From a virus: a stretch of 24,902 nucleotides of DNA. Made by a program: the position numbers and the translations under genes. Below, piece by piece: positions 2 through 18,043 of this stretch (its first letter is position 1; each line of letters begins with the position of its first letter). Below the pieces are notes generated by a model. That model saw nothing but the letters and a program-made list of their open reading frames with translations. It ran no database searches and had not been told where the DNA came from. The stretch is from the IMG/VR virus record IMGVR_UViG_3300037237_000040, positions 1 to 24,902 of that record. One strand, written 5' to 3'.

Positions 2-3000
2 ACGACTGGCGAGTATCTCGCGGGCTTTAATGCTAATATCTACAAGTCTACAAATGCCGGAGTGAATTGGTCTACATTCTCGACCGGCTTGCCAGCAGGC
101 GAACAGGCCAGCGACAAGCAGATAGCAATCAGCCCTTGGGATGACAGCTATTACACGGCTACCGACCCCACTTCTTCTGGGCAGCATGAACTTTGGGTTT
201 ATCCAAAATCCTCAAGCGGAGGAAATCCTGCCTTGACGGTTTCAACGGCTGGATCTGGATCTGGCACTATCAGCGGTACAAACTGCGCCAACGGAACCTA
301 TACGAGCGGTACCAACATCGGAGCTTGCACTGCAACCCCAGCAGGAGGGTCTACTTTCACGGGATGGTCGGGAACACTCGGCTGCACAGGAACTGGGACT
401 TGCTCAGGGACAATCACAGCCAGTTCCACTATCATTGCCACATTCTCATCCAGCGGCGCTGCTCTCACAGTTTCAACGGCTGGGTCTGGGTCAGGATCAA
501 TCAGCGGCACAAATTGCACCAGTGGCACTTACACCAGCGGTACCGTCATTGGTAGCTGCACAGCAACACCGGCAGGAGGGTCCACGTTTGCGGGCTGGAG
601 TGGAACTCTTGGTTGCACGGGAACCGGAGGCTGCTCTGGAACCCTCACAACCGCCTCTACGATCATTGCAACATTCTCGGCATCTGGCACGGTTGCCATC
701 ACAGCCAATGTGCCAGCTTACCCCTTTGGTGTGCTTCCCGGATCGCAGCGTACCATCAATGCCAACATCACCATCAGCGGTAACCAATGCACGATTGCGA
801 CAGGTAGCTGCCTTGTCAACTGGACGGCTTCAGGCACAGGCGGAACGAGCGCCACATTCACCGATCCTACACACAACGCCGTGTCTTCAATCTCTGGCGG
901 TCTACCCGTGATGCAGGTCAATATCGGCTCAACAGCCGGAACCGCGACAATCACCCCGGCACCGGGTCACGCTGGCCCGTATACCTTCACATCAACCGGC
1001 GTGGTGACGGTCACAGCTACCAGTGTCGATGATCCCACCAAGTCGGCCACTTACACATTTAACGTGGGTCAGAATTCGACGGCCATGCTCCCCAACGGGC
1101 AGAACTCGGTTATCGTGGCCCCGGCCTACCAGCAGGCGTTTCAGAATCAGCCCATGAGCCTGCAATCGTGGGTGGTGGGCTGCGTGGATGAGACAGGCAC
1201 ATGGTCAATCACTTCTCAACCGGGCGGCGGAAACGGAACTCTGTCCGACACCACGTATCGTGACACAGTATTCACGGCCAGCGTGACCGGGCGCTATGTC
1301 ATCAAGTATGCAGACAACTGCAACAGTGGATCAAACACCGCGATTGTCTACGTCAGCCCCAACGCGATGCCCTCATGGGCTACAGCGGGAAATAGCGAGC
1401 AAACCGAGCCGCGCGAGTGCTATGTTGATCCTGCTCTTACGGGTCCAGATTACGAGATTGGAGCAGGGAAAGCGTACACAACTATTTCTAGTGTTCCTGC
1501 GATCTCAGCCGTTGTACCGGGAACGATCTACCGGCTCTGGAACACGGACTTGACCGGATCGAACCCAAGCACATTCTATGAGTATTTCCAGATTCAGCAG
1601 AGCGGTACAGCTACTCAGCCTATCATTTTCTGTGGGAAGTCTGACTCGGCTGGCAACCTGCCTATCATGGATGGGAACAATGCAACAGCACAATCCGACT
1701 TGTCAACCGGCGCGGCTGCTGGGTACGGAATCTTTACACTCTGGATGGCGCAGCCGCACTACGGATACTGGCAGGACGCGATTACTCCAACAGAGAATGC
1801 AGGTAACTCCGTCATGGCCCCGGCATACGTGCTGCTCACCGGGCTGCATGTCAAAGACGCTGGACCGACATTCAACTATATTCCTCCCGGTGGTGGTGCT
1901 CCCACGGCATGGGTTGCCGGTGCTTCGGGCTTCAATCTTCGTTCTGGAATCTATGTGGACTTCGACGGCAACGATATTGACAACAACAGCAACGGAACTT
2001 TCTTGGCTGAGAACTCGGATAATTCAGGCTTCGTAGTCAACACGACTAACGTCACCATCAGAGGCAACCATATCCATAATTCAGGCGTGGCTGGAAGCCC
2101 CACTTACCATCAACTCTATGTTCAGTGTTTCTACTGCTTGCTCGAAGGGAACCTGATCGACAACTACAATCCAACGGCATCAGGTTCAATGCTCAAGTGG
2201 CGCGGCATTGAAGGCATCATTCGCTACAACAACATCCAGACAGGTGCGCAGCGTGTTGTGGATATGGTAGAAGTGCAAGATGCCGCAGGATATGTAGCTT
2301 TTGAGTATTATCTCGGCTCCATTGCTTTGTACGCAAACGGAGATTCGCTGGGTCCGAATTTGACGTGGTATCAGGAGAGTAAACAAAAGGACTTCGTTTA
2401 CGGCAACATGCTCTGGGGAGCTTCGTCGCTCGATCAGGTTCATTATGCTGAGGATAATATCGGCGACATGACTGACCGCAACGGCTTCTTGTACTTCTGG
2501 AACAACACATTGGATAACGCCGCCGTCGCATTTGCTATCGGTGAGAACAATGACGGCTACAATCCGTATCTCACGTCCCACGTCAATGCCATGAACAGCA
2601 TCTTCTGGTCAACGCGAGTTTCTAACGGTTCGAATCTGAATGCGACTATACAGATGGGCGATTACGAGAGCCTCATCCTCACAGCGCAGACAAACCTGCT
2701 CACCACGCTGCCATTTAGTTACAGCTACATCGCCAACCCAATTCCCATAGCCGGAACGATCAGCTATTCAAGTGGTACGGCTTATGGTTGGCCTATCGGA
2801 TGCGATCTGACTTGTCTGTGGCCGCTCACAGATCCAATGAATACTCACATCTACGGTTTAACGAATCCAAATTTCCTCAACACGGCCACGCAGCCCTACA
2901 ACGGAACGACCATGATCCCGCAATCTGGCTCAGCGGCCATCGGAGCCAGTTCCGCCCTTACGGGTTTGTCTGCGCAACTCCCGGTAAGATACGCCTTTAA

Positions 3001-4783
3001 CACTTCAAACAGCCAACTCAAAGCCAGAACACGTACTGGATTCGGGGGTGATGTGGGAGCGCAGGACGGAAGCGGCTCTGTTTCCTACTCGCTCACAGCA
3101 GCAACCGCTGGCACAGGATCAGGTACGAATAGCGGGTCAAACTGTCCCGGATCTGGACTAGCTTCAGGTACTGTTTTCTCCTGCACAGCAACCGCAAGCA
3201 CGGGGTCATCCTTCACCTCGTTCTCCAGCAGCCCATCTTGCGGCGGAAGTGCTTCAGGCAACGTCTATTCAGGCACGATGCCAGCCAGCAATTGCACTGT
3301 GACGGCATCGTTCAGCCTTAACAGTTACACCCTGACCACAACGACTTCAGGAACCGGCACGGGAAGCAACAGCGGCTGCTCTGGGTCACAAAATTATGGA
3401 GCTTCGTTTACATGCACAGCTACCGCTAGTGGTGGTTCGGTATTTGTAGCGTGGACGAGCAGCCCGTCATGCGGTGGAACTCCGAGCGGTACTACTTATT
3501 CGGGCACGATGCCAAATAATGCTTGCACAGTCAACGCGCAGTTCAATCTGGCGTCCACGTTCAATCTGACGGCCAACACAGGCGGCACAGGTAGCGGCAC
3601 CAATAGCGGTTCGAATTGCCCCGCAACTGGGATCGCGGCAGGAACTGCGTTCTCATGCACGGCAACAGCGAGCGCTGGATCTACGTTCACTTTGTTCTCA
3701 AGCTCGCCATCTTGCGGAGGCAGCGCGAGTGGGAATGTTTATTCAGGAACGATGCCCTCGATAAACTGCGTAGTTACGGCTTCGTTCTCAATCAACAGTT
3801 ACACGGTGACAACCTCAACCGCTGGCACCGGAACGGGTACCGTAGGCGGTTGCTCGGGATCGCATGTTTACGCCACATCGGTTAGCTGCTTGGCAACGGC
3901 GGCAGGCACATCAACCTTTGCAAGCTGGTCAGGTACCTGCCCATTCACGGCAACCGGCACGACGTTCGCAGGCAATATGCCAGCAAACAACTGCACGGCG
4001 ATTGCGACGTTCACAATCAACAGCTACACGCTGAGCACGACAACCAGCGGGACAGGATCAGGGTCTATCTCAGGGTGCGCTGGGTCTCACAACTATGGGG
4101 CTTCTTATACCTGCACAGCAAACCCCGCAGGAGGATCGACCTTCACAGCATGGACAAGTTCTCCATCTTGCGGAGGAACGCCTAGCGGATCGACGTACTC
4201 AGGAACGATGCCAGCAAACGTTTGTACAGTGAATGCGCAGTTCACCTTGACAGTATCACCAACCTACTCCTGCTCCACAACGACTATCGGCACAGGATCA
4301 GGCACGTTGAGCGGAACGAACTGCCCCGGAAGCGGTTTGTCAACTGGGGCAAGCTATTCGGCAACGGCAACCGCGAGCACAGGCAGCACCTTCACGAGCA
4401 TTACCGCCTGCCCCGGAACGATAACGGGCAATGTGTGCGCCGGGACCATCGCCAGCAGCAATATCACCATCACCGCATCATTCAGTTTGAACAGCTACGC
4501 TCTTACGACTTCGACGGCTGGCACGGGAACGGGAACGCTCAACGGTTGCGGTGGGTCCACTCCGTACAACTCGGCGGTAACTTGCTCATATACTGCTACG
4601 GGAGGTTCGACGTTTGGTGGATGGTCTGGCACCTGTCCGTTCACGGTAAGTGGAGCAACCTTCGTCGGAAACATGCCTGCGAATGCTTGCACGGTCATTG
4701 CCACTTTCAACTCAAGCTCACCTCCATCGCCGGTCACGATTACCGGCTCGGTCAAGATCACTGGAACGGTTACAATTCAATGA
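2..4783 (+). CDS. Giant secreted/fibre-like repeat protein, 5'-truncated by the window edge
   Basis: The frame is open from base 2, so the GTG at 62 is probably not the true start. The residues before and around it (YKSTNAGVNW) form an Asp-box of the sialidase/BNR beta-propeller type, so a propeller probably lies upstream. In order, the visible part has two InlB-B-like repeats (about 231-684), two Ig-like beta-rich segments (about 690-1360), a right-handed parallel beta-helix typical of pectate-lyase-fold proteins (about 1438-3020, with strand-turn units such as VTIRGNHIHNSG and LLEGNLIDNYNP), and seven further four-cysteine repeats (about 3085-4718). It ends with a short VTITGSVKITGTVTIQ tail. 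Beta-helices of this kind bind or cleave polysaccharide in phage tailspikes and in secreted bacterial enzymes. No catalytic residues could be assigned. It could be a tailspike or a surface adhesin encoded by a prophage; the cysteines favour an extracytoplasmic setting. Confidence 0.8.
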   Translation, partial: TTGEYLAGFNANIYKSTNAGVNWSTFSTGLPAGEQASDKQIAISPWDDSYYTATDPTSSGQHELWVYPKSSSGGNPALTVSTAGSGSGTISGTNCANGTYTSGTNIGACTATPAGGSTFTGWSGTLGCTGTGTCSGTITASSTIIATFSSSGAALTVSTAGSGSGSISGTNCTSGTYTSGTVIGSCTATPAGGSTFAGWSGTLGCTGTGGCSGTLTTASTIIATFSASGTVAITANVPAYPFGVLPGSQRTINANITISGNQCTIATGSCLVNWTASGTGGTSATFTDPTHNAVSSISGGLPVMQVNIGSTAGTATITPAPGHAGPYTFTSTGVVTVTATSVDDPTKSATYTFNVGQNSTAMLPNGQNSVIVAPAYQQAFQNQPMSLQSWVVGCVDETGTWSITSQPGGGNGTLSDTTYRDTVFTASVTGRYVIKYADNCNSGSNTAIVYVSPNAMPSWATAGNSEQTEPRECYVDPALTGPDYEIGAGKAYTTISSVPAISAVVPGTIYRLWNTDLTGSNPSTFYEYFQIQQSGTATQPIIFCGKSDSAGNLPIMDGNNATAQSDLSTGAAAGYGIFTLWMAQPHYGYWQDAITPTENAGNSVMAPAYVLLTGLHVKDAGPTFNYIPPGGGAPTAWVAGASGFNLRSGIYVDFDGNDIDNNSNGTFLAENSDNSGFVVNTTNVTIRGNHIHNSGVAGSPTYHQLYVQCFYCLLEGNLIDNYNPTASGSMLKWRGIEGIIRYNNIQTGAQRVVDMVEVQDAAGYVAFEYYLGSIALYANGDSLGPNLTWYQESKQKDFVYGNMLWGASSLDQVHYAEDNIGDMTDRNGFLYFWNNTLDNAAVAFAIGENNDGYNPYLTSHVNAMNSIFWSTRVSNGSNLNATIQMGDYESLILTAQTNLLTTLPFSYSYIANPIPIAGTISYSSGTAYGWPIGCDLTCLWPLTDPMNTHIYGLTNPNFLNTATQPYNGTTMIPQSGSAAIGASSALTGLSAQLPVRYAFNTSNSQLKARTRTGFGGDVGAQDGSGSVSYSLTAATAGTGSGTNSGSNCPGSGLASGTVFSCTATASTGSSFTSFSSSPSCGGSASGNVYSGTMPASNCTVTASFSLNSYTLTTTTSGTGTGSNSGCSGSQNYGASFTCTATASGGSVFVAWTSSPSCGGTPSGTTYSGTMPNNACTVNAQFNLASTFNLTANTGGTGSGTNSGSNCPATGIAAGTAFSCTATASAGSTFTLFSSSPSCGGSASGNVYSGTMPSINCVVTASFSINSYTVTTSTAGTGTGTVGGCSGSHVYATSVSCLATAAGTSTFASWSGTCPFTATGTTFAGNMPANNCTAIATFTINSYTLSTTTSGTGSGSISGCAGSHNYGASYTCTANPAGGSTFTAWTSSPSCGGTPSGSTYSGTMPANVCTVNAQFTLTVSPTYSCSTTTIGTGSGTLSGTNCPGSGLSTGASYSATATASTGSTFTSITACPGTITGNVCAGTIASSNITITASFSLNSYALTTSTAGTGTGTLNGCGGSTPYNSAVTCSYTATGGSTFGGWSGTCPFTVSGATFVGNMPANACTVIATFNSSSPPSPVTITGSVKITGTVTIQ
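231..684 (+). repeat. Two N-terminal InlB-B-like protein repeats
   Basis: Two tandem units of about 75 residues begin LTVSTAGSGSG at about 234 and 465. Both run through GTNC, GTYTSGT, CTATPAGGSTF, a Trp-Ser-Gly turn and a closing IIATF strand. The consensus matches the divergent InlB B-repeat family of small beta domains in secreted proteins. Each copy carries four cysteines at equivalent places. Confidence 0.75.
3085..4718 (+). repeat. Seven C-terminal four-cysteine repeats in mosaic order
   Basis: Seven consecutive units of about 75-80 residues each open with a Y-x-L/V-T-T strand and a G-T-G-S/T-G turn, and close with a C-T-V-x-A-x-F strand. They fall into sub-types by their middle part. 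Units 1 and 3 share FSSSPSCGGSASGNVYSG. Units 2 and 5 share WTSSPSCGGTPSG. Units 4 and 7 share WSGTCPFT. Unit 6 is an outlier whose cysteines are shifted. The order is therefore A-B-A-C-B-D-C. Confidence 0.75.
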
Positions 4784-4791
4784 GGATACCC

Positions 4792-5688
4792 ATGAAGACA
4801 ATCGCAGGGCTATTTCTGTTCGCCGCACTCGCTGGAGCACAGACGCCAGCCGCATCCACTGCGACCGTGACCGGCACCCTCGCTGGGACGCTGACTGTAG
4901 CGGGAACGGGCGTCAGTGGAAGTATGCCGGTCTCCGGAACAGTGGCGATTACATATCCAACCGGCACTACATCCCCCACGACAACTGCGACCGTTACTGG
5001 AACTCTTTCGGGGGCGCTGGCTCTAACTGGAACAGGTCTCGGCGGGAGTATGCAGGTTACTGGTCCGGTTACGATAACCTACCCGACTGGGAATACGCCT
5101 CCACCGCCTCCAACCTGTTCTCCATTCACAGATCCGCTCACTGGAGCTTCTGGGACAGCCCTCAATCCCGTAAACTGGACACAACCAACCGGCTTTAATG
5201 TTGGCGGCGGCACAGCGGTTCAAAATTCTGGAGTCGCTCAAGCAAATGCTAAATATCGTGGCGGCGGGGCGATCCTCACATCCTGCCCATCGTCGCTGAC
5301 GCCTTATGTGCAATTTGTGGTGAGCGCGGTTGATGGTCTTGGTGCTATTCAGGGATTGCTTTTAACCACCACCACAGGCAACGGCTACTCAATCAGCCTC
5401 AACAATTCCGGCGTCAACAACAGCATCAGCAAATGTACAGCCGGGAAGTGTACCTACCTCGGTCCAGCCACTTGCAGCGCAGCCTTTGCTGCAACAAACA
5501 CCTTCAAAACTTCGGCGGTGATTGTGTCAGGGAACTCGATTGCTATCTCGGTATGGCGGAACGGCGTTCTGTGCGGAACCGTGAATGACACTGCTTCGCC
5601 GTACACTACAGGCTTTAGCGGCTTTGCGATCTACGCCAATGGTTCAGCGACCGGCGATCAGATTTCTCAACCTCAACTGGTGAACTAA
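4792..5688 (+). CDS. Secreted protein with duplicated N-terminal repeat
   Basis: This is a 298-aa protein of unknown function. The ATG at 4792 is chosen because TGAGGA (4781-4786) sits just upstream and a classical signal peptide follows directly (MKTIAGLFLFAALAGAQ). An in-frame ATG at 4780 overlaps the previous stop but would place four extra residues before the signal peptide. After the signal come two 42-residue repeats (TATVTGTL...ITYPTG), a PPPPP linker, and a beta-rich C-terminal region (about residues 110-298) opening with F-x-D-P-L and ending with a G-F-S-G-F-A-I-Y strand. That layout recalls concanavalin/LamG-type sugar-binding sandwiches, but the match is by eye only. Four cysteines in the C-terminal part could form disulfides. 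It is translationally close to the giant gene upstream and overlaps the lipoprotein gene downstream. Confidence 0.7.
   Translation: MKTIAGLFLFAALAGAQTPAASTATVTGTLAGTLTVAGTGVSGSMPVSGTVAITYPTGTTSPTTTATVTGTLSGALALTGTGLGGSMQVTGPVTITYPTGNTPPPPPTCSPFTDPLTGASGTALNPVNWTQPTGFNVGGGTAVQNSGVAQANAKYRGGGAILTSCPSSLTPYVQFVVSAVDGLGAIQGLLLTTTTGNGYSISLNNSGVNNSISKCTAGKCTYLGPATCSAAFAATNTFKTSAVIVSGNSIAISVWRNGVLCGTVNDTASPYTTGFSGFAIYANGSATGDQISQPQLVN
4861..5113 (+). repeat. Two 126-base tandem repeats inside the secreted protein gene
   Basis: GCGACCGTGACCGGC at 4861 recurs as GCGACCGTTACTGG at 4987, a spacing of exactly 126 bases or 42 codons. The peptide is well conserved (TATVTGTLAG against TATVTGTLSG; GTVAITYPTG against GPVTITYPTG), while the DNA differs mainly at third positions. 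Confidence 0.7.
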
Positions 5689-5882
5689 TGCGTTCAGTAC
5701 CTCTACTCTTCGTGGTGTTGCTACTTGCTGGCTGTATTTCGCAGCCGCCAGTTCCAGACGTTCCGGTAGATGCACCATTGACGCCAGCGCCACCGCTCCC
5801 GCCTCCCGTTACGGCTCCGACACCGCCGCTACCTCCAGCACCTACACCAGTGCCGGTAACCCCGGTTGCAGCGGTGAAATAA
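5688..5882 (+). CDS. Small proline-rich lipoprotein
   Basis: This is a 64-aa protein with a type II signal peptide: basic MRS, a hydrophobic stretch, then lipobox L-A-G-C with the acylated cysteine at residue 16. The mature part is almost only Pro, Val, Ala and Thr and would be an extended, unfolded stalk on the outer surface of a membrane. The residue after Cys is Ile, not Asp, which in enterobacteria would permit sorting to the outer membrane. Its ATG overlaps the previous stop (TAATG), and its own stop overlaps the next ATG in the same way, so it is translationally coupled on both sides. Function is unknown. An outer-membrane spanin-like or phage-exclusion role is possible but not shown. 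Confidence 0.7.
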   Translation: MRSVPLLFVVLLLAGCISQPPVPDVPVDAPLTPAPPLPPPVTAPTPPLPPAPTPVPVTPVAAVK

Positions 5883-8080
5883 TGAAGAGAGTTCTTCTAT
5901 TTTCGGTGTTTCTGCTTACGGGATGTCCGAGTCCCGCGCCAGCACCAGTGCCAGTTCCACCGCCGATTCCTACGCCAGTCACGCCAACGCCGATTCCGGT
6001 GCCAGTCATCCCTGTACCTGTCCCCGTGCCAGTGCCGGTTCCACCACCGGCCATCACATATCAATGGGGTGTGATCGGTGACACCTCGCTTTCGTGGACT
6101 GCTCCAAATAGCTGGGATACTCAATCTGTTCTACCCGTAGACATAGCCATTGCGAACGGGATCGCGTACACCGCGAACGCTTACTCGGAAGGCGGCAAGA
6201 ACGCCTCCAGCTTCGCGCTTGCATCTCCGCAGCAGCCGACCGCGCTGATGTCACCGGGATACCTTGACGAAGATCAGTACGTGGCTACTGATGGCATCAA
6301 CGTGTACTTCGATCAGGTCAGCGATGCACCGGGTTGGAATACAAGCGTGCCGTGGGTCATGGCGTGGAATATCGCGGCGAACGCCTATTACACCTTTCCG
6401 AATGGCGTTAAGCCGACAAATGGAAGCAACTCTACGAGTGTGATCGACCAAGGTAATGCGTCCAACGGAATCGCTGTGCAGAAGACCGGCAACATCCTCG
6501 CGGTGAGTCACACGGCTGCAAATCAGATTGTCCTTTTCGATAAGACTACCGGCGCAACTCTCCAGATCGAAAGCATCCCCTCACCGGGCCGATTGGCATT
6601 CGAGCCGGATGGAAGTCTCTGGGCGATTTCAGGCGCGACGGTGGTAAACATCTCAGGTGTGGGTGGCTCAAATAAGATCGTCACGACACTTACTCCCTTA
6701 GTCGCACCCCTCACCGTGGCCGTGGACCCCGTGACCTCCAACGTCCTTGTAGCCGATGGCGGCTCATCTCAGCAGGTAAAGACTTTCAACGAAAATGGAG
6801 TGCTGCTCTCAACTTATGGCGACCTTGGCGGCTATACGGACTGCTCTCCGACAGTCACGAAAACGCGCCTGTGGCTCGATAACACGGCTGGGATGGGATA
6901 CACCAAGCAAACCCTCTTGGCTGTTGCTCCCGATTCCTCCTACTGGGTTGGCGATCCCGGCAACGCGCGAATCCTCCACATCTCTTCGACTGGTAAGTAC
7001 ATCGAAGAAATCAGCTTCTTGAGGTATCTCTACTATGTCGCAATCGACCATACAAACCCTACTCGCGTTTTTGCAGACGCACTCGAATTTGCGGTCAATT
7101 ATAGCGTCCCCATTGTTCCCGGCGACGGCGGTGCCGGTTCTTGGTCTCTTGCACGAAATTGGGCAGCGTGTGTTCCGGCCAGCTATACAGGACAATTCGG
7201 ATTCAGATTCGCCCAAGTCCAGACGCTCCCCAATGGGCTGACCTACGGTTTGCTTTATAACTACGTCGCGGCAACCAACCAAGCCTACAACGAACTCGTG
7301 CAGTTTCCGGCAACAGGGCCTTTGGTGCGTAGTGGACAATTTCTTTCGCCTACTGGGTGGAAATTCCAATTCTTCGATCACAGTGGGAACCTAGCTTGGT
7401 GGAGCTTTATACCGGCTTCACCAGCAACTTCTACTACAGCGGCAATTCCGGCCACGCAAACGGCTTACTCGGCTCCGCTCACCGGCTACGATGCGAACTC
7501 CTTGCCGACATACGGGCCTGCAACAGTTGTGGCTTCCGTGCCGAACACTGGCGTCACGACCACGCCGAACGGCTACGCTGGATGGGGACAGACGTTTCCG
7601 CCGATTGCTACTACGGGCGGCTATTATCCGACCTACCAGACAGCCATTTCGACGCCGGGGCAGGATCACCACCTTGGCGCTGTGCTTGCTGGAGGGTCAA
7701 ACTGGTCATGGACGGGTGCGCCGGGTGCGCTATTGACAGCGCCAGATGGCCTTGGCACCTTCACTGATATTCAGCCGTTTGGCGGACACGGCGGCATCGC
7801 AGCGGCCTCTGAAGGCAAATACGTCCTTCAAGGCTACGATGGCCAATGGGGGACATACGCGAGCCAGTGGTTCCTCTATGGTGAAACTGGCAACTTTATC
7901 AGTCAGTTTGGTCATGGCTTCACACTGCCAGCACCGGCTGATGGATCGGAGTATCCTTCTGCGGCAGGCAATATCTGGACGATGGCGACGGCATTAGCCG
8001 GGAACTGCATTTATCTCATCAACTCAGACGAGGGCTACCACCCCGGCGTACATGTAACTAAAATATGCAACTTGCCGTAG
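5882..8080 (+). CDS. Lipoprotein with proline stalk and NHL-like beta-propeller
   Basis: This is a 732-aa protein. Residues 1-15 form a lipoprotein signal ending L-T-G-C (Cys15). Residues about 17-57 are a Pro-Val-rich stalk of P-V/I-P repeats. The rest is beta-rich, with NHL/SMP-30-like blades: LAFEPDGSLWAIS near residue 236, VAVDPVTSNVLVADGG near 279 and VAPDSSYWVGDPGNARI near 346. Such propellers mostly bind ligands or proteins; no enzyme signature was seen. The start overlaps the preceding lipoprotein stop (TAATG), so the two lipoproteins are probably made together. The residue after Cys15 is Pro. It may be a surface receptor-like or shielding protein expressed from a prophage, or an acquired host gene; the sequence does not decide between these. 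Confidence 0.7.
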   Translation: MKRVLLFSVFLLTGCPSPAPAPVPVPPPIPTPVTPTPIPVPVIPVPVPVPVPVPPPAITYQWGVIGDTSLSWTAPNSWDTQSVLPVDIAIANGIAYTANAYSEGGKNASSFALASPQQPTALMSPGYLDEDQYVATDGINVYFDQVSDAPGWNTSVPWVMAWNIAANAYYTFPNGVKPTNGSNSTSVIDQGNASNGIAVQKTGNILAVSHTAANQIVLFDKTTGATLQIESIPSPGRLAFEPDGSLWAISGATVVNISGVGGSNKIVTTLTPLVAPLTVAVDPVTSNVLVADGGSSQQVKTFNENGVLLSTYGDLGGYTDCSPTVTKTRLWLDNTAGMGYTKQTLLAVAPDSSYWVGDPGNARILHISSTGKYIEEISFLRYLYYVAIDHTNPTRVFADALEFAVNYSVPIVPGDGGAGSWSLARNWAACVPASYTGQFGFRFAQVQTLPNGLTYGLLYNYVAATNQAYNELVQFPATGPLVRSGQFLSPTGWKFQFFDHSGNLAWWSFIPASPATSTTAAIPATQTAYSAPLTGYDANSLPTYGPATVVASVPNTGVTTTPNGYAGWGQTFPPIATTGGYYPTYQTAISTPGQDHHLGAVLAGGSNWSWTGAPGALLTAPDGLGTFTDIQPFGGHGGIAAASEGKYVLQGYDGQWGTYASQWFLYGETGNFISQFGHGFTLPAPADGSEYPSAAGNIWTMATALAGNCIYLINSDEGYHPGVHVTKICNLP

Positions 8081-8143: not shown

Positions 8144-8527
8144 ATGCCACCAAGAAAAACGGTTTTTCAGGATGATTGCGATGAATCAATGCGGGAATTG
8201 AAGGTTCAGGTTGCCGGATTGGAGAAGTGGATGAACGAATCCAATATCGAGCTAAGGGTTGTGAAAGAGGGCGTAGCCAACTTCCGCGAATTCCAACAAG
8301 ATGCACGAGACTTCTTCACTCAGTCCCGTACTCGCGACATCGAACGTGAGAAGCAGACCAACAAACGCGATCAGGAGATCAAGGATACGCTTACGTCACA
8401 CCAAACTATGGCTGAAAACAAAGACAAGAGAAGAACATTTCTTCTTACAGCTTTTGGTATTTTTCTTTCTGCGGTTACCGTTTTTCTTGCCATCATGGAG
8501 TTCATTCGCTATAGTAAAGGGCACTAA
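8144..8527 (+). CDS. Coiled-coil protein with C-terminal membrane anchor, possible lysis accessory
   Basis: This is a 127-aa protein. Residues about 13-95 are charged and heptad-like, predicted coiled coil. Residues 98-121 form a single transmembrane helix followed by a short basic tail (RYSKGH). AAGAGGA at 8133-8139 is a good ribosome-binding site for the ATG at 8144. The layout (coiled coil, then one C-terminal helix) resembles XhlA/haemolysin-type proteins that accompany phage holins, although those are usually shorter. Its place at the head of the block holding the holin and endolysin candidates fits a lysis accessory or antiholin role, which is inference. The stop overlaps the ATG of a tiny ORF. 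Confidence 0.6.
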   Translation: MPPRKTVFQDDCDESMRELKVQVAGLEKWMNESNIELRVVKEGVANFREFQQDARDFFTQSRTRDIEREKQTNKRDQEIKDTLTSHQTMAENKDKRRTFLLTAFGIFLSAVTVFLAIMEFIRYSKGH

Positions 8528-9310: not shown

Positions 9311-9625
9311 ATGCAAAGCTGGCCACAGCCCTTCTGGGCAATCCTGATCGCAATGATGGGGTTCTCCCTCGCCATCGTTGTGCTGATGAATCAGAGTAAC
9401 GACCAAATCAAAGTAGCAGTTCTTGCCGTCGCTAGTTCGCTCGTCTCAGGCGCTCTCGGAGCCTTCGCGGGTGCGGCTCACAGTCAAGCCAACAGTAGCA
9501 CCACCGCGACCGGCCCCAACACCACCATCAATCAGCCCACTCCAGTTGCGCCACAGGTCAACGGGGTACCGATCCAAGTCCCTATTCAGGCGGTAGAACC
9601 GCCGCAGCCGAAACAAGGAGCATAG
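9311..9625 (+). CDS. Holin candidate with two transmembrane helices
   Basis: This is a 104-aa protein. Residues 8-26 and 34-54 are two hydrophobic helices joined by a short polar loop (NQSNDQIK), followed by a long polar, Pro/Thr/Gln-rich tail. AGAGGA at 9301-9306 is the ribosome-binding site. Two-helix small proteins close to a lysozyme-like gene are typical of class II holins, which permeabilise the inner membrane and release or activate the endolysin. The charged tail common to holins is replaced here by a neutral proline-rich one. Assignment rests on topology and position only. Confidence 0.6.
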   Translation: MQSWPQPFWAILIAMMGFSLAIVVLMNQSNDQIKVAVLAVASSLVSGALGAFAGAAHSQANSSTTATGPNTTINQPTPVAPQVNGVPIQVPIQAVEPPQPKQGA

Positions 9626-10078
9626 ATGAAACTCAGAGACAAAAACGCACTGCACTTTTTTCTAATAGCAGCAGCTTTCATAGTGATGTTCACACCGGAT
9701 ATAGTGGGATGCGCGACAGCTACCACTCCAGCCGTTCCGTTGGCACCGGGGTACATCAATTCAGCCGATCAAACGATGGGACAGATCCTCTCGGGAGCGA
9801 GGGGCTTTTACAGCACAGTCCAGTGCGAAACTCAGGGGTTGAACTGGTCGCAGGCAACAAATCTGTGCGTAGCGGACCCGAATATCACAACCCCGCTAGT
9901 TCTGAGCACGACGACGAAGGCAGTCTTCAACGACTTCGGAGTAAGCCTGAACGCGACGAATCAAGTTTACTTGGCCTACCATGCCGGGACAGCAACACAG
10001 GCAGCAGCGCAGGCAGCGGTGACCGCATTACAAGCCAAGCAGAACGCATTGCCAATAGTATCGGGGGTTACCCAGTGA
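9626..10078 (+). CDS. Possible lipoprotein of the lysis block
   Basis: This is a 150-aa protein whose ATG directly follows the previous TAG, with AAGGAG at 9615-9620. A hydrophobic N-terminus (residues 9-23) precedes I-V-G-C at 26-29, which fits a lipobox, but Pro24 and Asp25 just before it are unusual, so plain membrane anchoring is an alternative. The mature part is Ala/Thr-rich with two further cysteines and a helical Ala/Gln-rich end (TQAAAQAAVTALQAKQ). Its position beside holin and endolysin candidates would suit an outer-membrane spanin, but no i-spanin partner is obvious. Confidence 0.55.
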   Translation: MKLRDKNALHFFLIAAAFIVMFTPDIVGCATATTPAVPLAPGYINSADQTMGQILSGARGFYSTVQCETQGLNWSQATNLCVADPNITTPLVLSTTTKAVFNDFGVSLNATNQVYLAYHAGTATQAAAQAAVTALQAKQNALPIVSGVTQ

Positions 10079-10471: not shown

Positions 10472-10894
10472 ATGCCATTGACAGTTCTTGTAGCGATGTC
10501 TAAAGTTGAGGGTTTCGGGGAGCCGGGAGAGATCCCAACCGTAGCCAACAACCCTCTTGACCTTATCTACTGCGACGAATCTATTCACTTCGGTGCTACA
10601 GGACAGCACCTTCACGCCAACGGGACTCCTTCAGGATTTGCCCAGTTCGCAAGCGTGGATGATCCCACAACAGGAGGCTGGCAGGCAGGACGGCGCTGGC
10701 TGTCTGTACCGGCACATTTCGATGCAAACAGGAACCTTATCGGCGGTTACATGGGAGCAACCATCTCACAAGCCATCAACCGCTTCGCTCCCGGCTCGCA
10801 GAAAGGCAACAACCCACTGGCTTATGTTACGGCTGTTTGCGAAAAAACAGGGTTGACTCCACAAACGATCCTCACGCCAACAAATTTAGGGTAG
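10472..10894 (+). CDS. Lysozyme/transglycosylase-like endolysin
   Basis: This is a 140-aa protein with TTAGGAGCACC (10462-10472) providing the ribosome-binding site. The sequence follows a lysozyme-like pattern used by small phage endolysins: an early helix carrying the presumed catalytic Glu (A-M-S-K-V-E-G, Glu13), an N-N-P motif (26-28), G-F-A-Q-F (about 55-59), a GW-x-A-x-R-R-W-L helix, then a G-A-T-I-x-Q-A-I-N-R-F-A-P helix and N-P-L-A-Y-V-x-x-V-C-x-x-T-G-L. Enzymes of this type cut the glycan strands of peptidoglycan. There is no signal peptide, so it should depend on a holin. It is the last gene before the terminator at 10933. Confidence 0.7.
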   Translation: MPLTVLVAMSKVEGFGEPGEIPTVANNPLDLIYCDESIHFGATGQHLHANGTPSGFAQFASVDDPTTGGWQAGRRWLSVPAHFDANRNLIGGYMGATISQAINRFAPGSQKGNNPLAYVTAVCEKTGLTPQTILTPTNLG

Positions 10895-10974: not shown

Positions 10975-11601
10975 GTGCCGACTGAGAGCAATGTTGTAGA
11001 GATCGGACGTAGACACAAATCTCCACCCGACTGGACTGGTCAGGTGTTCGGTAGGCTCACGGTCATAAAATTTTCTGGTGTGGATAGGCATGGCCAAAGA
11101 ATGTGGCTGTGCAAGTGTGCTTGTGGAAAAGAAACAACACGGCCAGCAGGAACCCTAAAAAGCGGCAATACAAAAAGTTGTGGATGTCTTCATTTTGAAC
11201 TTCTTAAGGTTCCAAAAGGTAAGCATCCAGAGTGGGGAGTTGGTTATGGCATCGGCGCTAGGAACACCATAATCTCCTGCTATAAGAAGAGGGCGAAAGA
11301 CGGCGGTAGAGTGTGGAATCTAACTACAGATCAGGCTGAATCTATTTTTCGAGGGAACTGCCATTATTGCGGGAAGGAACCGTCGCACAAGTCTGCGAGC
11401 AAAAAGATGAATGGTGGATATGTTTACAACGGAATTGATCGCATCGACAACTCCAAAGGATACGAAAATGGCAATGTTGTTTCGTGTTGTAGGCGATGCA
11501 ATATGGCCAAGAACGACATGCCGTATGAAGAATTTGTAAACTGGATTGAGCGCGTCCATTCTCGTCTAGTTGAACAAGTTGAGAGGAAATGTGCCAGTTG
11601 A
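10975..11601 (+). CDS. HNH homing-type endonuclease
   Basis: This is a 208-aa protein starting with GTG at 10975, with AGGAGG at 10964-10969. The N-terminal part (about 22-72) is the phage DNA-binding module GQVFGRLTVI ... CKCACG ... SCGCL, with Cys46/48/50/69/71 likely holding zinc. The C-terminal HNH nuclease has Cys129/Cys132 (C-H-Y-C), the I-D-R-I-D core (154-158), Asn167, C-C-R-R-C (171-175) and Asn180. Such enzymes cut DNA and spread themselves as free-standing homing genes. The gene is A/T-richer than its neighbours (bases 11161-11220 hold 22 G/C of 60), lies just after a terminator, and overlaps the next gene by 11 bases. All of this fits insertion into the late region. Confidence 0.9.
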   Translation: MPTESNVVEIGRRHKSPPDWTGQVFGRLTVIKFSGVDRHGQRMWLCKCACGKETTRPAGTLKSGNTKSCGCLHFELLKVPKGKHPEWGVGYGIGARNTIISCYKKRAKDGGRVWNLTTDQAESIFRGNCHYCGKEPSHKSASKKMNGGYVYNGIDRIDNSKGYENGNVVSCCRRCNMAKNDMPYEEFVNWIERVHSRLVEQVERKCAS

Positions 11602-12221: not shown

Positions 12222-13538
12222 ATGGCAGGAATATTTCAATGGTTGACGCTCACACAGGCTAAAACGCAGCTTGCGCAGCGGCTCAATGACCCTACGTTCC
12301 AATTTTGGACGCAAGCGGAATTGACGATTTACATCTCACAGGCATTGAGAATGTTCAATTCTTTGACTTGGACTTGGAGACAAGATTTCCAGTACAACGA
12401 CCCTATCAACCTCTGGAACTCTCTGGGATTGCTTTCTGGATCGCCACGGCAGAGGACATTATTTGACACTTACTGCTATACAGAAATGCAGTACATGCTG
12501 TTGGAGCCGCCGTCTGGCCAAACGTGGACTGGAACCAACCAGTTCAACATCAGCGTTTTTTCTCAGGCTCTTCAGCGCCGCAGGGATGAAATGTTGCAAC
12601 TGAGCAACTGCAATCAAAGCCTAATGGCTGGGGTCGCATTGACGCCGGGGACGATCAGGACTGAACTACCAGACTCTGTGATTGACGTGGAGCGCGTCAG
12701 GTACATTCCAGCCATAGGAAGCCCTAACACGCTCTCTAGAGATGATACGGTCGCACAGGAGTTCTACGAAGCTCCTCTTTACCAGCTTCAATTCGGAACA
12801 CCTCAAACATTCTCGCTATCGTCTGAACCGCCTCTGTCGTGGCAGGTAGACGTTCCTCCCGCTCAACCCGGAACTTACGAAGCCATCGTGCTGCAATCAG
12901 GAGCGCCGTTTAATCCGCCTACGCCGACGCTGATTGGCATCCCAGATGATTTTGTTTTTGTGTTGGAATTTGGCGCTTTAGCAGATTTGCTTGGCCAAGA
13001 GTCAGAGTCAACCGACCATGAGCGTGCAGATTATTGCATGAAGAGGTATCAGGAAGGTCTCGAACTGATGCTTAAAACTCCGTGGATCGGTCTCGGAAAA
13101 GTAAATGGAGTGGCTGTCAGTATTGATTCTATCTTCTCTTTGGATCAGTATGATGTTAACTGGGATTCAAACCCAAGTGGCTTTGGACCTGTACTGGTAG
13201 CTGGAGGCGTTGACAATATCGCCGCACCTTTGGCGCAGGGCATAGGCGTAACCGTATTAGGCAATGCCCCAATATTGGATAGCACTGGTACGTATGTCCA
13301 GATAAGCCGCCCTATGGCCGACACCATGTTTGATTTAGCTCAGGCGAGAGCGGCGTTCAAGCAGGGCGGAGGCGAATTCAAGGCAGTAGTGGAACTTGAG
13401 AAGAGAGCATTCCAAGCATGTGAAGCTGAAAGAGTACGCCTAAAGAGCCAAGGGGCTTTCTCGGATTTCTTCGATGAGCGCGGAAGACAACAGGAACGAG
13501 ATATGAACCGCTTCAATGCCGCCAATAAAGGAAAATGA
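12222..13538 (+). CDS. Probable neck/adaptor-type virion protein
   Basis: This is a 438-aa protein. The N-terminus (about 8-55) is helical with the pattern TLTQAKTQLAQRLND-x-x-F-W-T-x-A-E-L-x-x-Y-I-x-x-A-L-R, ending in a Trp-rich stretch (SLTWTWRQDF). This recalls head-tail adaptor or neck proteins of phages with short tails. The middle is beta-rich, and the C-terminal 70 residues are helical and charged (AQARAAFKQGG ... DERGRQQERDMNRFN). No strong ribosome-binding site precedes ATG 12222, unlike its neighbours. It directly precedes the nozzle-like gene, an order seen in podovirus-type tails. The exact family is not identified. Confidence 0.55.
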   Translation: MAGIFQWLTLTQAKTQLAQRLNDPTFQFWTQAELTIYISQALRMFNSLTWTWRQDFQYNDPINLWNSLGLLSGSPRQRTLFDTYCYTEMQYMLLEPPSGQTWTGTNQFNISVFSQALQRRRDEMLQLSNCNQSLMAGVALTPGTIRTELPDSVIDVERVRYIPAIGSPNTLSRDDTVAQEFYEAPLYQLQFGTPQTFSLSSEPPLSWQVDVPPAQPGTYEAIVLQSGAPFNPPTPTLIGIPDDFVFVLEFGALADLLGQESESTDHERADYCMKRYQEGLELMLKTPWIGLGKVNGVAVSIDSIFSLDQYDVNWDSNPSGFGPVLVAGGVDNIAAPLAQGIGVTVLGNAPILDSTGTYVQISRPMADTMFDLAQARAAFKQGGGEFKAVVELEKRAFQACEAERVRLKSQGAFSDFFDERGRQQERDMNRFNAANKGK

Positions 13539-13595: not shown

Positions 13596-16500
13596 ATGGC
13601 TCTCGGACCGTTCGACTTCAAGGGTTTCAGCGTCACTGACCCAATCAATCGCCTGAAATCAGGGGTTCTGACTCTGGCTGTCAACATCCGGGCTTACGCC
13701 CGTGGTGGAATCACCTTTCGCAACCTTCTTACAGCAGCTATTTATACACTTGGGGCGGCGGTACACAGCATAAGGCGCTTGAATGACACGACGCCCGCAG
13801 GCCCAAGTTCTGGATACTCCATAATCAACGGAGCAAGTACAACGTTATCTCTTTGGAACTCCGTAAGCGGGGTTCTTAACGTTGCCACGGGACTCAGCGG
13901 CAATCCAATCTCAATCGTTCCTTTTCGTCCGAATGCTTCAGTTCGGACTGAGGGCTACATCGGAGATTCTGCGCCACAGGGAAGCGTCACCCTAAATACT
14001 CAATATCTTGGTCTAAACAAGTTTGGACCGGCAGGTACGCCTGTAAACTTCGTTTCCAATGGCATGATGAAGGTTTCGAGTACCGGAATTTGCTGGAAAT
14101 CTGGCATAAAGGAGCCGCAGCTTGCTCCTGTGATCTCAACGCAGAGTTCAGTCATTCCTTTCGGTGTTGGAGGAATTGGTAACCTGCTTGCAACAGCAAT
14201 TCCGTGGTCAAATTATCTCGGCATGAACTCTGGCTACGATTACGGCGAAACCAGTGGGTACCCTGATCCAACTCCAGACGGAACAGCCCCCTTTGTCGTA
14301 GATGTACTGAACGCCTCTTTTGTCACCATCACACTCTCAGGGATGGCGAACATTAACGGCAATGCTGCCACAGTACCGACTACTCTTGGTCCTTCTACAA
14401 CCGCAACAACCAGCCCCGGCCACTACGTCATGGAGATGAGGACTGGCACAACTCCTCCTCCCACAGCTACTGTAGTCATTGGAGCGTTCACGGATGGGAA
14501 TGGAAATGTCATTCCGGCAGGCGTGGCACCGCTCTACATCCCATCAGTAGTCGATGTGGGCGCAGTCAATGGGGTGCTGCTTGGAATCACCGTCCCATAC
14601 GGTGCGGTTTCCTTCCAAATAGGAATCAACACCATTGGCAACAATATTCCACCCGGATTTGCTGGCAACTCAGGCGCGTTTAATCTGAGCGGAACTGTGA
14701 CAACCAATGCTCTCCCATCAGTGGTGTCGATCTTGGGAAAGCTCACGCTTTCCTATTGGGGCGATTCTCCTACAAGTGGCGCGGTATCAGAATATATATG
14801 GAAGAATCCTGACGATCCCGGTGGTAGCGGCGTGCCTCGATCACTTTCAACGGCGGTCGGGACTGCTACAGGAAACTCATTTATTTTTGACGCATCTTTT
14901 GGCGCTGCCGCCGTTCCGCCACAACTAACAGGGATTCCCGGTTTGCCCGGAACCGACATGATTACTGGGATTAGCGATGTCACTGTCGCTATGCTGTGGG
15001 CGCAGCTTACCCCTGAGAGCGTCGTGTCGGGGAGTCTGCCTGTATTCGCTTCTCCAATCACCGTTCCAGCCCCACAGAACACCAACAACACCACATACGG
15101 AAACTTCAATTTCTGCCTTACGGGTAACCTATACTTCCCATCTGGGGGAAATTTTACCCTCGTTCTTGGCAACAAAGACGACTTGATTTGGGGTATCGGC
15201 GGAGGAGTGACGCTAGTTTCCGCAACTGGAGAGTTGTATCAGTACAATACCGGCGTTGTTCCGACTACGTTAACGTCATCAACTGCCCAGACGCCGACAC
15301 TCTCTGATGATGGTCAGACGATCACTGTGGCGAACGGCTATCCGTTACTTCCAAGGGCATATTGGAAGGCTGGAGATGGTGGCAAGATTCAGCAAACTAC
15401 AGTGGTGGTAAGTGTGCCAGCGGCGGGCATTTATCCCATTGAAATAGATTATGATTTCTGGTATCACTCGGGACGCATTTTACTCTTGATGGCGACACCT
15501 TACGCCGGTGCTGTCACTACCGATAATCCTATAAGCATCATTCCTCCTCTTCCATCGAATGTCAGGCAGGACACTCAGTATCGTTACGTCTACAGGTCTT
15601 CGGCCACTGGAGCACTATCTAACCCATCTCCTGAATCAGCAGCAGAAACTATCCCTGTCGCGGCAAACACGATCACATCCCTTTGGTCCAACGACCCTCA
15701 AGTGGATGTGGTTGACTACTACCGCATCGACTCAGTTGTTGGCAGCTTTACGTATGTTGCCACAGGACCAAACGACGATCTAGGCACAGTGGTTGGAACC
15801 AACACATCGATTAGTGATTCGCTCACTGATACAGAACTTGGCAGTCAACTTCTTGAGTACGACAACTTTGAGCCGTTCCCTTCAATCGACCTTCCGCAAA
15901 AAGGAATTGTCAACGTATCTGGAGGTGTCATTACTTGGGTTTCTGGTGGAGCGATAGGAGGGGCAGCAACAGGATTTAATATACGTTGGCTGGCAGGAAC
16001 TGAGATTCTTATCGGCTCTCCTACGTCCCTTGTCTACACGTTCATTGCGCGTCCTACGTCTGGCATAAGCGTAACGATTCCAAATGTTCCTGATGGAACG
16101 AACTTGGCTTATGAAATACCAGAGCCAATTCTAGCTGCACAGCCGTTGCCGTACATGTGGGGTCCGACAGACAACATCAACTTTGCTTTTGCGGTTGGAG
16201 ATCCACTCAGGCCGGGAACGCTTTACTGGTGCAAGGGATCGAACTTAGATTCCGCTCCTGATACGAATCAGCAGGACGTGACTGACCCATCCGAAGCACT
16301 TGTGAACGGAGCGATTGCTGGTGGACTTGGCGTGCTGTTCTCGATTAAGCGTGGTTGGCTAATTTTGCCAAGTTTCGCCAATTCTACTGCAACCGCCACA
16401 GGAACTACTGGATCAACTTGGACATTACAGGAATCCTCAATTACCAGAGGACTGTACATCCCACGTTGCGTGTGCGTGTCTGGTGGAGGACTGATCTTTT

Positions 16501-17258
16501 TCCGCGTCGATGATGGAGTTCACATTTCCGTCTATGGATCAGCGTCAAAGTCAATCACAGACGATACTCTTTATCCACTCTTTACTCATGAGGACGAGGA
16601 TTCTTCTGGGAATCAGCCACAGCCGGTCACGAGAGAAGGCGTAACGGTTTACCCGCCTGACGACACGCTTCCACAGCTTCAACGATTCTCCTTCAGTAAT
16701 GGTTACATGTACTATGACTACCAAGGAACCGATGGCAACCCACACACGCTAGTCTTCGATGAGGCAGCGATGGGATGGGTTGTGGATGCATCAAGTCCAC
16801 CAGCAACAATCCACGCATCGAATGAAGGTCAAAGCCAGCAAGGGGTATTGGTCGGATGCTCGGACGGCTCGGTACGCCAGCTAGCAAGTTCTGGAACAGA
16901 AGCAATCACAGGCATTGCAATGACTCCCGCGATAGGAGGACGTGGTTACAACCACACAGGAATGATGGTCTGCGAGTACAGTTCAACCAGTGCCGTCACT
17001 CTCAATATCTTGCCTGCCGACGAAGGAAACGGAAGCTATGGTCCTCCCACAATCACATTGCCTGCAACTGGAGGAACGCTGACTAAATACTGGTTTAGGC
17101 CGGGAGCGAACAAGTACAAACTCGCTTGGTTCAAGTTCTCAAGCACTGTTTCGTTTGTATTGAATTTTCAAGGCTGCATCGCATACCAAAAAAGCTGGGG
17201 CGATTCTGGTCAGTACGCACCAATTCCAATCTTCGGTGGAGCGGGAGGAGAGGGATGA
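13596..17258 (+). CDS. Large tail protein, nozzle/hub-like
   Basis: This is a 1220-aa protein with no signal peptide. The N-terminus (about 14-65) reads D-P-I-N-R-L-K-S-G-V ... VNIRAYARGG ... AVHSIRRLND, a pattern seen at the start of large beta-propeller tail proteins of podoviruses (packaged-DNA stabilisation or tail nozzle proteins). The centre is beta-rich, with a segment YVYRSSATGALSNPSP at about 661-676 common in such proteins. Near the end come HTLVFDEAAMGWVVD and GVLVGCSDGSVRQL (about 1050-1097), typical closing propeller strands. A role as the distal tail tube or hub follows from this and from its position between adaptor and fibre genes; it is not proven. GAAGG upstream serves as ribosome-binding site. 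Its stop overlaps the next ATG (ATGA). Confidence 0.6.
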   Translation: MALGPFDFKGFSVTDPINRLKSGVLTLAVNIRAYARGGITFRNLLTAAIYTLGAAVHSIRRLNDTTPAGPSSGYSIINGASTTLSLWNSVSGVLNVATGLSGNPISIVPFRPNASVRTEGYIGDSAPQGSVTLNTQYLGLNKFGPAGTPVNFVSNGMMKVSSTGICWKSGIKEPQLAPVISTQSSVIPFGVGGIGNLLATAIPWSNYLGMNSGYDYGETSGYPDPTPDGTAPFVVDVLNASFVTITLSGMANINGNAATVPTTLGPSTTATTSPGHYVMEMRTGTTPPPTATVVIGAFTDGNGNVIPAGVAPLYIPSVVDVGAVNGVLLGITVPYGAVSFQIGINTIGNNIPPGFAGNSGAFNLSGTVTTNALPSVVSILGKLTLSYWGDSPTSGAVSEYIWKNPDDPGGSGVPRSLSTAVGTATGNSFIFDASFGAAAVPPQLTGIPGLPGTDMITGISDVTVAMLWAQLTPESVVSGSLPVFASPITVPAPQNTNNTTYGNFNFCLTGNLYFPSGGNFTLVLGNKDDLIWGIGGGVTLVSATGELYQYNTGVVPTTLTSSTAQTPTLSDDGQTITVANGYPLLPRAYWKAGDGGKIQQTTVVVSVPAAGIYPIEIDYDFWYHSGRILLLMATPYAGAVTTDNPISIIPPLPSNVRQDTQYRYVYRSSATGALSNPSPESAAETIPVAANTITSLWSNDPQVDVVDYYRIDSVVGSFTYVATGPNDDLGTVVGTNTSISDSLTDTELGSQLLEYDNFEPFPSIDLPQKGIVNVSGGVITWVSGGAIGGAATGFNIRWLAGTEILIGSPTSLVYTFIARPTSGISVTIPNVPDGTNLAYEIPEPILAAQPLPYMWGPTDNINFAFAVGDPLRPGTLYWCKGSNLDSAPDTNQQDVTDPSEALVNGAIAGGLGVLFSIKRGWLILPSFANSTATATGTTGSTWTLQESSITRGLYIPRCVCVSGGGLIFFRVDDGVHISVYGSASKSITDDTLYPLFTHEDEDSSGNQPQPVTREGVTVYPPDDTLPQLQRFSFSNGYMYYDYQGTDGNPHTLVFDEAAMGWVVDASSPPATIHASNEGQSQQGVLVGCSDGSVRQLASSGTEAITGIAMTPAIGGRGYNHTGMMVCEYSSTSAVTLNILPADEGNGSYGPPTITLPATGGTLTKYWFRPGANKYKLAWFKFSSTVSFVLNFQGCIAYQKSWGDSGQYAPIPIFGGAGGEG

Positions 17259-17368
17259 AAAACCCAGTAACGCCAAGACGATGCTCACGTTGCGGAACGA
17301 TAGGGCATCAACCGTTTCCAGACAAACTGTGCCCTTCATGCACTAAGTGGCAGGAGAAGCAGAAGTGA
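17255..17368 (+). CDS. 37-aa zinc-ribbon protein
   Basis: ATG at 17255 overlaps the preceding stop and is served by a strong GGGAGGAGAGGG site inside the upstream gene. The peptide has two CxxC pairs (Cys10/13 and Cys26/29) separated by 12 residues, the usual spacing of a small zinc ribbon, with basic flanks (TPRR, KWQEKQK). The next gene overlaps its stop (GTGA). Zinc ribbons bind nucleic acid or protein; what this one does in a tail operon is unknown. Confidence 0.7.
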   Translation: MKNPVTPRRCSRCGTIGHQPFPDKLCPSCTKWQEKQK

Positions 17369-18042
17369 GCACAACTCCAACAATTGTCAATCGTTTTCCA
17401 TTTGAGCCTCATATCGCTGATATGCCGCCTCAGCAGCAGTACGTCATTCGCAATTTATGGAATGCTGTGTTTGATGCGCAGAGTGCAATACCGATCTTAA
17501 AGACCCAAATCGACGCGAACAAAAGTGCAATTTCAACGACAAACGAAACCGTAAATAACAACTCAAGCAGCGAAACAATCATCCAAGTGGTCGGAAGCGA
17601 CTATGGGACGGTAAACAACCAAACAGGAAACACGGTCTACGCTACAGCCCAGAGTGATGCGGGTGGGTTTGTCATCCTGTCTGACGCATCTCCTATCGCG
17701 GTAACCCTAACGGCGGCTCCGGTGATTACCATTCCTTGGGCGTGCTCATTTCTCAACTTGGGAGCAGGGACGGCAACGCTCACACCTGCGAGTGGAACAA
17801 TTTCCTATTATGGGCATATTGCTGCGGCATCCATGCCAATTATTCAAGGGTTTTATTCCATAGTTGCATTCGATGGAACTAATTTTTGGGCGGATTCTCT
17901 CCCAATCGCTACCTCTTTGACATTTGGAGCAGTGAAACCTGATAATTCAACCATCACTATAGCGGGAGGGGTTATAAGCGCTGTTGGGGGCGGAGGTTCT
18001 GCGCTGGACTTTTCACAGGGTTTCATGCTGATGGGCGGATAA
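17365..18042 (+). CDS. Short tail-fibre-like protein
   Basis: This is a 225-aa protein. GTG at 17365 is chosen for its GTGA overlap and the AGGAGAAG site at 17352-17359; an in-frame GTG at 17347 would leave no good site. The N-terminus has F-P-F-E-P-H-I-A-D-M and a helical segment (residues about 25-60), a possible trimeric coiled coil. It then continues with Gly/Thr/Ser-rich beta strands (AVTLTAAPVITIPW, ATLTPASGTISYYG, FDGTNFWADSLP), and ends in a glycine-rich stretch and LDFSQGFMLMGG. This fits a fibre or fibre-attachment protein. No family assigned. Confidence 0.6.
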   Translation: MSTTPTIVNRFPFEPHIADMPPQQQYVIRNLWNAVFDAQSAIPILKTQIDANKSAISTTNETVNNNSSSETIIQVVGSDYGTVNNQTGNTVYATAQSDAGGFVILSDASPIAVTLTAAPVITIPWACSFLNLGAGTATLTPASGTISYYGHIAAASMPIIQGFYSIVAFDGTNFWADSLPIATSLTFGAVKPDNSTITIAGGVISAVGGGGSALDFSQGFMLMGG

Positions 18043-18043
18043 G

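Follow-up and report, generated by a model that had tools for sequence, protein, structure and literature searches.

A recurrent phage-borne gene block with export signals and a stalked propeller lipoprotein beside the lysis genes of Acidobacteriota-linked phages

Four consecutive genes, A, B, C and D, precede the lysis genes in a 24,902-nucleotide stretch of DNA from a soil phage linked to Acidobacteriota (IMG/VR record IMGVR_UViG_3300037237_000040, positions 1 to 24,902; hereafter the window). We have found that they belong to a recurrent, phage-borne multi-gene block with predicted export signals, in which D has the predicted architecture of a lipid anchor, a stalk and a propeller. Our best explanation, to which we give about even chances, is that this is a Sec-exported block encoded by Acidobacteriota phages in the interval between tail-fibre and lysis genes and aimed at the exopolysaccharide (EPS) of the host, and that the core of A and the head of D were acquired from the host. 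Judged from the sequences, the predicted export and the origin of the block are well supported, and late expression, outer-membrane placement, an EPS target and a benefit to the phage are what we infer beyond them. In several Acidobacteriota-linked tailed-phage lineages, the tail-to-lysis interval is full of signal-bearing proteins, and at least two modules in it appear to come from host EPS loci.

Layout of the block and architecture of its proteins

All genes of the window are on the same strand, and their coordinates are listed in Table 1. The B/C and C/D joins are both TAATG, with overlaps of the stop codon TAA and ATG at 5688 and 5882, and a 63-base gap separates D from the lysis-type genes. 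Promoter and terminator scans of the window gave results no better than chance. The initial annotation had described a signal-peptide protein (B) and two lipobox proteins (C and D) with TAATG joins, Pro-rich stalks after the lipobox Cys and an NHL-like propeller in D. Its coordinates, motifs and stalks were borne out, and so was the propeller, by the profile and model results given below. The grouping of B, C and D also stands; the start of the run at 4792 does not, as A belongs to it too, having a relative in locus L046 that starts with a signal peptide.

D opens with FLLTGC, followed by a 42-residue Pro/Val stalk (Pro 49% across the first 45 residues after the Cys) and, from residue 58, by the head. 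Both C and D show the K/R n-region, hydrophobic core and lipobox Cys of signal peptidase II lipoproteins, and the lipobox has the same form in the L073 phage protein and the G228 host protein described below. A profile built from six relatives of the D head matches NHL propellers with structures in PDB (E 4.5e-22), while Pfam gave nothing above cut-off on D, its NHL family itself falling short. An AlphaFold2 (AF2) model of the head, built from eight sequences from the window and the fetched viral loci, is all beta (pLDDT 73.5, pTM 0.80), and its best PDB matches by Foldseek are tandem propellers, e.g., 2ymu, 4ci8 and 1nr0, with TM-scores of up to 0.46 by query length. On profile and model, the D head is thus predicted to be a tandem NHL-type beta-propeller.

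C consists of LLLAGC and 48 further residues (Pro 44% across the first 45), so that it is almost entirely a signal peptide, a Cys predicted to be acylated and a Pro-rich chain. B has two short beta repeats (TVTGTL/MPVSGT) followed by a jelly-roll candidate that weakly resembles concanavalin/GH16 folds. Its assignment as a GH16 glucanase was rejected, the match (E 0.015) being not significant and too weak for use. Comparison of B with phage records gave no relatives, and the Terriglobia genomes gave marginal matches only (E ~1e-3, one in a broken frame), which were not counted. A carries 46 Cys and nine InlB B-type repeats (Flg_new_2, 5.6e-53, nine stretches), and its core (residues 227-1010) is homologous to Terriglobia EPS-locus proteins. 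About 300 residues are missing from its N-terminus when judged against the L046 copy, a complete relative of 1526 aa that is 80% identical over the core and has the signal peptide MRKTILFLLALFAPLAHAV. The A profile found no match in PDB, and the AF2 model of the A core has a pLDDT of 28; no fold is claimed for A. None of A, B, C and D matched PHROG tail families, no catalytic family was found in A, B or D, and D had no match of the carbohydrate-active enzyme (CAZyme) type.

Recurrence in phages and relatives in host genomes

Relatives of the adaptor gene M, downstream of the lysis genes, were found in 24 IMG/VR loci, in L032, a contig putatively binned to an Acidobacteriaceae metagenome-assembled genome, and in the cultured phages Tunturi_1 and Tunturi_2 (27%) of Tunturiibacter psychrotolerans (PMC11924767). 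The order of exported block, lysis genes and adaptor is kept in these relatives and in Tunturi_1, which is a complete phage genome, and large signal-peptide proteins take up the interval that precedes the lysis genes and adaptor. At 121-143 kb, the linear contigs of some relatives (G003, G008, G002 and G009) are roughly double the length of Tunturi_1, and each has a single adaptor gene.

Among genes of at least 150 aa, signal peptides were called in 38 of 87 upstream of the adaptor and in 1 of 95 downstream (Fisher p 7.6e-14), the calls being made by a heuristic rule of our own instead of SignalP or LipoP, and unannotated gene starts being set by a simple rule. Tail-fibre proteins of phages are expected to lack signal peptides. 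In a set that partly overlaps these genes, 52 of 247 proteins were signal-positive, whereas shuffling of the N-termini gave 12.8 on average and 19 at most. The median Cys content per 100 aa was 1.82 in mature signal-bearing proteins and 0.71 in other proteins (p 4e-6), as would be expected if the former fold outside the cytoplasm; these Cys and signal statistics count related genes as independent, with near-duplicate loci partly thinned. In Tunturi_1, gp12, gp13, gp14, gp16 and gp17 are signal-positive, the capsid and adaptor proteins are negative, and gp15 has a hydrophobic N-terminus that was not called by the rule. About nine consecutive signal-bearing genes are found in G362.

Two sequence features of block proteins are also listed in Table 1. 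A two-Cys domain, GYCNLGAAQAxTSGLxSSNYxQGxIPxCTVTVYLTGT, stands directly after the signal peptide in all 11 of the 11 proteins found by pattern, and small signal-bearing or lipobox-like proteins, some of them Pro-rich after the Cys, recur in the block of relatives. In Tunturi_3 (L029 13298-29886), tail-fibre genes lack signal peptides, so that the trait is not common to all phages of the same host.

The block appears to be modular. L046, within the 63.6-kb contig G362, has counterparts of A (80% over the core) and B (72%) arranged as in the window with a small transmembrane protein next, the E-type gene coming directly after B; it has no adaptor homologue and no C or D at the junction of B and the lysis genes. 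Since A and B occur there (71-80% identity) without C and D, the latter pair is an accessory insert between B and the lysis group. The A core with a signal peptide is also found in a similar position in L080, which has a different tail module. The D head occurs at 73% in L071 and L072, where it is part of a multidomain protein with a signal peptide and Tunturi_3-like tail genes lie alongside, and at 67% in L073, on a lipoprotein with the lipobox ACPSPAPIPVPIPPP and Pro stalks beside T4-type baseplate genes; the L073 protein further includes an InlB repeat like those of A and, as a second stalk, PVVP. The D-head frame of L071 (1620-6408) is broken by a frameshift near 2900-2966, where L072 is intact. 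More distant heads (27-32%) are found in L074-L077 and, without a signal peptide, in L028/ctkAd229. A search of viral contigs for D relatives by exact peptide words had found none, and a profile including host sequences later found them; a pattern search of GTDB contigs for D, made with poor patterns, found none. The cassette of anchor, stalk and head that had been proposed as phage-borne is therefore met again in L073, an unrelated T4-like myovirus, and Sec-signal proteins occupy the same place in relatives and in cultured Tunturi_1.

Among 349 Terriglobia genomes, three have a D head of full length, namely G228 (two copies, 47% and 36%), G303 and G255 (32%), the matches below these top four being mostly single-propeller or low-complexity and not counted as homologues. 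The best copy (G228, 47%; 44% by blastp) is a lipoprotein. The A core is present at full length in about 15 of the 349, with a best identity of 54%. In G228, a stretch of about 13 kb contains an A relative and both D relatives, with O-antigen ligase, acyltransferase and glycosyltransferase-like genes close by; in G303 and G255, the D relative adjoins a flippase-like gene, acyltransferases and glycosyltransferase-like genes; and other host A relatives mostly lie in EPS loci, beside exosortase, EpsI, XrtA-type chain-length, export and sugar-transferase genes. In midpoint-rooted trees, from which the direction of transfer is deduced, phage A is nested inside host sequences (96/96) and the host lipoprotein stands beside the phage D trio (91/93). 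The simplest reading of these sequences is that the A core and the D head were captured from host EPS gene clusters. The initial annotation had pointed to occurrence in chromosomes without the phage genes as a sign of host genes, and on this point the outcome is mixed. A small number of Terriglobia chromosomes do have homologues of A and D (at most 54% and 47%, respectively), which are scattered and lie in polysaccharide loci; closer copies (80% and 73%) are carried by other phages, which fits capture of host genes by phages and not a host segment in the contig.

Beyond the block, the window holds a lysis group and the adaptor gene, with an HNH/endonuclease VII-type gene between them, and glycosyltransferase-like and methyltransferase-like genes after a minor tail protein gene. 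The lysis groups of relatives include a protein of about 180-200 aa that starts with an RR motif and whose signal ends in a lipobox-like GC (MNRRxF...GC), resembling a lipoprotein of the twin-arginine translocation (Tat) pathway; the lysis group of the window has a GC lipobox-like start without RR.

Table 1. Coordinates of features in the window and, where a locus is named, in related loci
Feature	Coordinates	Strand	Description
A	2..4783	+	Large secreted protein (predicted), C-terminal 1593 aa; contig end cuts the N-terminus
B	4792..5688	+	298-aa secreted protein (predicted), ATG at 4792
B Sec signal peptide	4792..4839	+	From the sequence: MKTIAGLFLFAALAGA, then Q; L046 copy MKILAGLFLFAAIAHA, then Q
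C	5688..5882	+	64-aa predicted lipoprotein, o-spanin-like in form
C lipobox	5724..5735	+	From the sequence: L-A-G-C, Ile at +2
D	5882..8080	+	732-aa predicted lipoprotein: lipid anchor, Pro/Val stalk and tandem beta-propeller head
D lipobox	5915..5926	+	From the sequence: L-T-G-C, Pro at +2
D Pro/Val stalk	5927..6052	+	From the sequence: residues 16-57
D head	6053..8077	+	Residues 58-732, 4 Cys; phage and Terriglobia homologues from motif YxWxGVIGxTS on
E	8144..8527	+	127 aa, coiled coil and C-terminal transmembrane helix (XhlA-like form); first lysis-group gene
G	9311..9625	+	Small transmembrane protein, holin-like; Phage_holin_7_1 E 0.029 (weak)
GC lipobox-like start	9626-10078		Without RR
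J	10472..10894	+	Endolysin-type; phrog_873 1.3e-7
HNH/endonuclease VII-type gene	10975-11601		
M	12222..13538	+	Virion adaptor-type; related to Tunturi_1 gp30 'structural protein'
Second fibre-like set	13596-22602		
Glycosyltransferase-like and methyltransferase-like genes	22590-23786		
Tat-lipoprotein-like proteins	L002 6783-7316; L004 6634-7242; L009 7461-8000; L017 8433-8972; L018 8691-9233; L020 5719-6258		
Small signal-bearing or lipobox-like proteins	L002 8115-8681; L004 4366-4902; L008 2685-3155; L020 1372-1881; L080 8506-9039		
Two-Cys domain at starts of block proteins			L017, L018, L019, L007, L011, L013, L021, L027

Proposed role of the block and alternative explanations

In the proposed mechanism, A to D would be made together, with C and D translationally coupled through the overlaps noted above. 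The products would leave the cytoplasm via Sec, and C and D would be acylated and most likely sent to the outer membrane, as neither has Asp at +2 and the rule of E. coli is assumed to apply. The Pro stalk would, as the architecture suggests, keep the tandem-propeller head of D off the membrane, where the head may bind or remodel host EPS or its partner on the cell surface, which is presumably what the related lipoprotein of a host polysaccharide locus does. The EPS of the infected cell might then be masked or loosened, and fewer new virions would be lost to the producer cell, debris and slime, which would amount to a superinfection block and a help to release.

Several points weigh against this explanation. 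What is said of expression, localisation and binding is predicted from sequence, and the signal peptide calls depend on our own rule. In G104, the host homologue with 54% identity to A lies outside EPS loci. Foldseek with the D head finds generic propellers only and no lyase or lectin, and a signal peptide is absent from the nhL relative of ctkAd229/L028. D was not found in any locus fetched from the closest relatives of the window, so that it is dispensable for the group. Some block proteins, such as that of L025, resemble virion spikes, so that the block may serve the virion.

The main rival, which we consider rather doubtful, develops this last point: the signal-bearing proteins would be spikes or fibres that are exported first, are disulfide-folded in the periplasm and become part of the virion when the cell lyses or later, with D and C as membrane-anchored companions. 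It agrees with the position of the block, which is where fibre genes lie, with the match of the L025 signal-bearing protein to PHROG tail spike (8.7e-24) and virion structural families, with the annotation of Tunturi_1 gp14 as a tail spike and gp17 as a virion structural protein, and with the D head of L071, carried by a signal-bearing protein immediately upstream of Tunturi_3-like tail genes. On the other hand, signal peptides are absent from a second fibre-like set that follows the adaptor in the window and in which R matches minor tail protein PHROGs, the tail-fibre genes of Tunturi_3 likewise lack them, and lipid anchors would be pointless on a free virion. No virion proteomics is reported for the Tunturi isolates in PMC11924767. 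Tunturi_1 on Tunturiibacter psychrotolerans is a cultured pair with such a block, and EPS management and spike export can be directly tested against each other in it.

It is unlikely that D, with or without C, is a narrow receptor blocker like T5 Llp or TP-J34 Ltp, acting on a protein receptor and unrelated to polysaccharide. Phage lipoproteins are known in that role (PMC9586334; TP-J34 Ltp as cited in PMC11437467), the same mode of action has been suggested for a Thermus phage lipoprotein and for WD40/TolB-like secreted genes, and C alone, at 64 aa, would fit the small size of superinfection-exclusion lipoproteins. D (732 aa) does not: known blockers are small, Llp acting from the periplasm on FhuA, whereas the D head is ten times their size and has relatives among proteins of host EPS loci. 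Moreover, D lies in a presumably late, lysis-proximal block, and blocker genes are usually early or lysogenic.

Quite improbable is an o-spanin (Rz1-like) role of C, with the C-D pair as part of the lysis machinery. C resembles Rz1 proteins in being a short lipoprotein rich in Pro and lies immediately before the lysis genes, and C and the D signal peptide score weakly against PHROG spanin models (E 0.027, Rz-like, and E 0.039, respectively); yet no i-spanin-like partner (N-terminal transmembrane helix and periplasmic coiled coil) is seen beside C, the transmembrane helix of E being C-terminal, the 732-aa propeller is foreign to known spanins, and L046 lacks C and D at the same junction. A phage/host boundary near 8080, as first suggested, which would make A-D host genes in keeping with the chromosomal homologues of A and D, is very hard to maintain, given the nearer homologues in phages, the gene order that relatives and the complete genome of Tunturi_1 share, the absence of tRNA genes in the window, a contig that is a virus record throughout with genes on one strand, and a G+C content of D (0.559) similar to that of A, B and Q.

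A more general reading may tentatively be considered. Acidobacteriota phages and some others might export via Sec a modular block in which large spike-like proteins occur with host-derived ones, some lipid-anchored on stalks, and which is swapped between unrelated tailed-phage lineages, either as a general phage 'secretome' by which the EPS coat of infected cells is controlled or for spike maturation outside the cytoplasm.

Comparison with known systems

In the literature searched, with most subscription literature outside its scope, no paper describing such an exported block was found. Phage target proteins of diversity-generating retroelements lacked signal peptides in a survey that took this absence as support for phage origin (PMC6199706), and among five rumen phages three had no signal peptides and the others one or two (PMC5723332). 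A role of phage lipoproteins in superinfection exclusion is described in PMC9586334 and PMC11437467, the latter also describing a signal-bearing WD40 protein in a Thermus phage.

The nearest host counterpart of D is the Terriglobia lipoprotein of G228 (L042 12165-14945) in a polysaccharide locus, which shares the lipobox and a homologous head (44-47% over about 700 residues); it differs in being chromosomal and in having, instead of a plain Pro/Val stalk, a longer linker with a FlgD-type Ig domain and, by eye, a further Ig-like stretch. The lipoprotein of the T4-like contig L073 shares a lipobox region (CPSPAP), a Pro stalk and the head, and differs by the InlB B-type repeat and second PVVP stalk between anchor and head, by the unrelated phage type and by a contig end that cuts the protein. 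The 'nhL' protein of podovirus ctkAd229 (MW202691) and L028 has a similar head (32% over 540 residues); unlike D, it has no signal peptide or lipobox, has a FlgD-type N-terminal part and follows a fibre-like gene.

T5 Llp and TP-J34 Ltp are, like D, phage-encoded and lipid-anchored, and are thought or shown to act at the surface (PMC9586334; PMC11437467), whereas they are small, have no stalk or propeller and lie outside any multi-gene exported block. The variable region of Thermus phages IN93 and Tsatsa, likened to D by description only, has a phage lipoprotein or a signal-bearing WD40 (TolB-like) protein for which superinfection exclusion has been proposed, and lies by integrase and repressor genes, not in the tail-lysis interval. 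Classical tail spikes and EPS depolymerases share the genome position with the block, and spike-type domains with some of its proteins; they differ from it in having no signal peptide, and no catalytic family was found in A, B or D.

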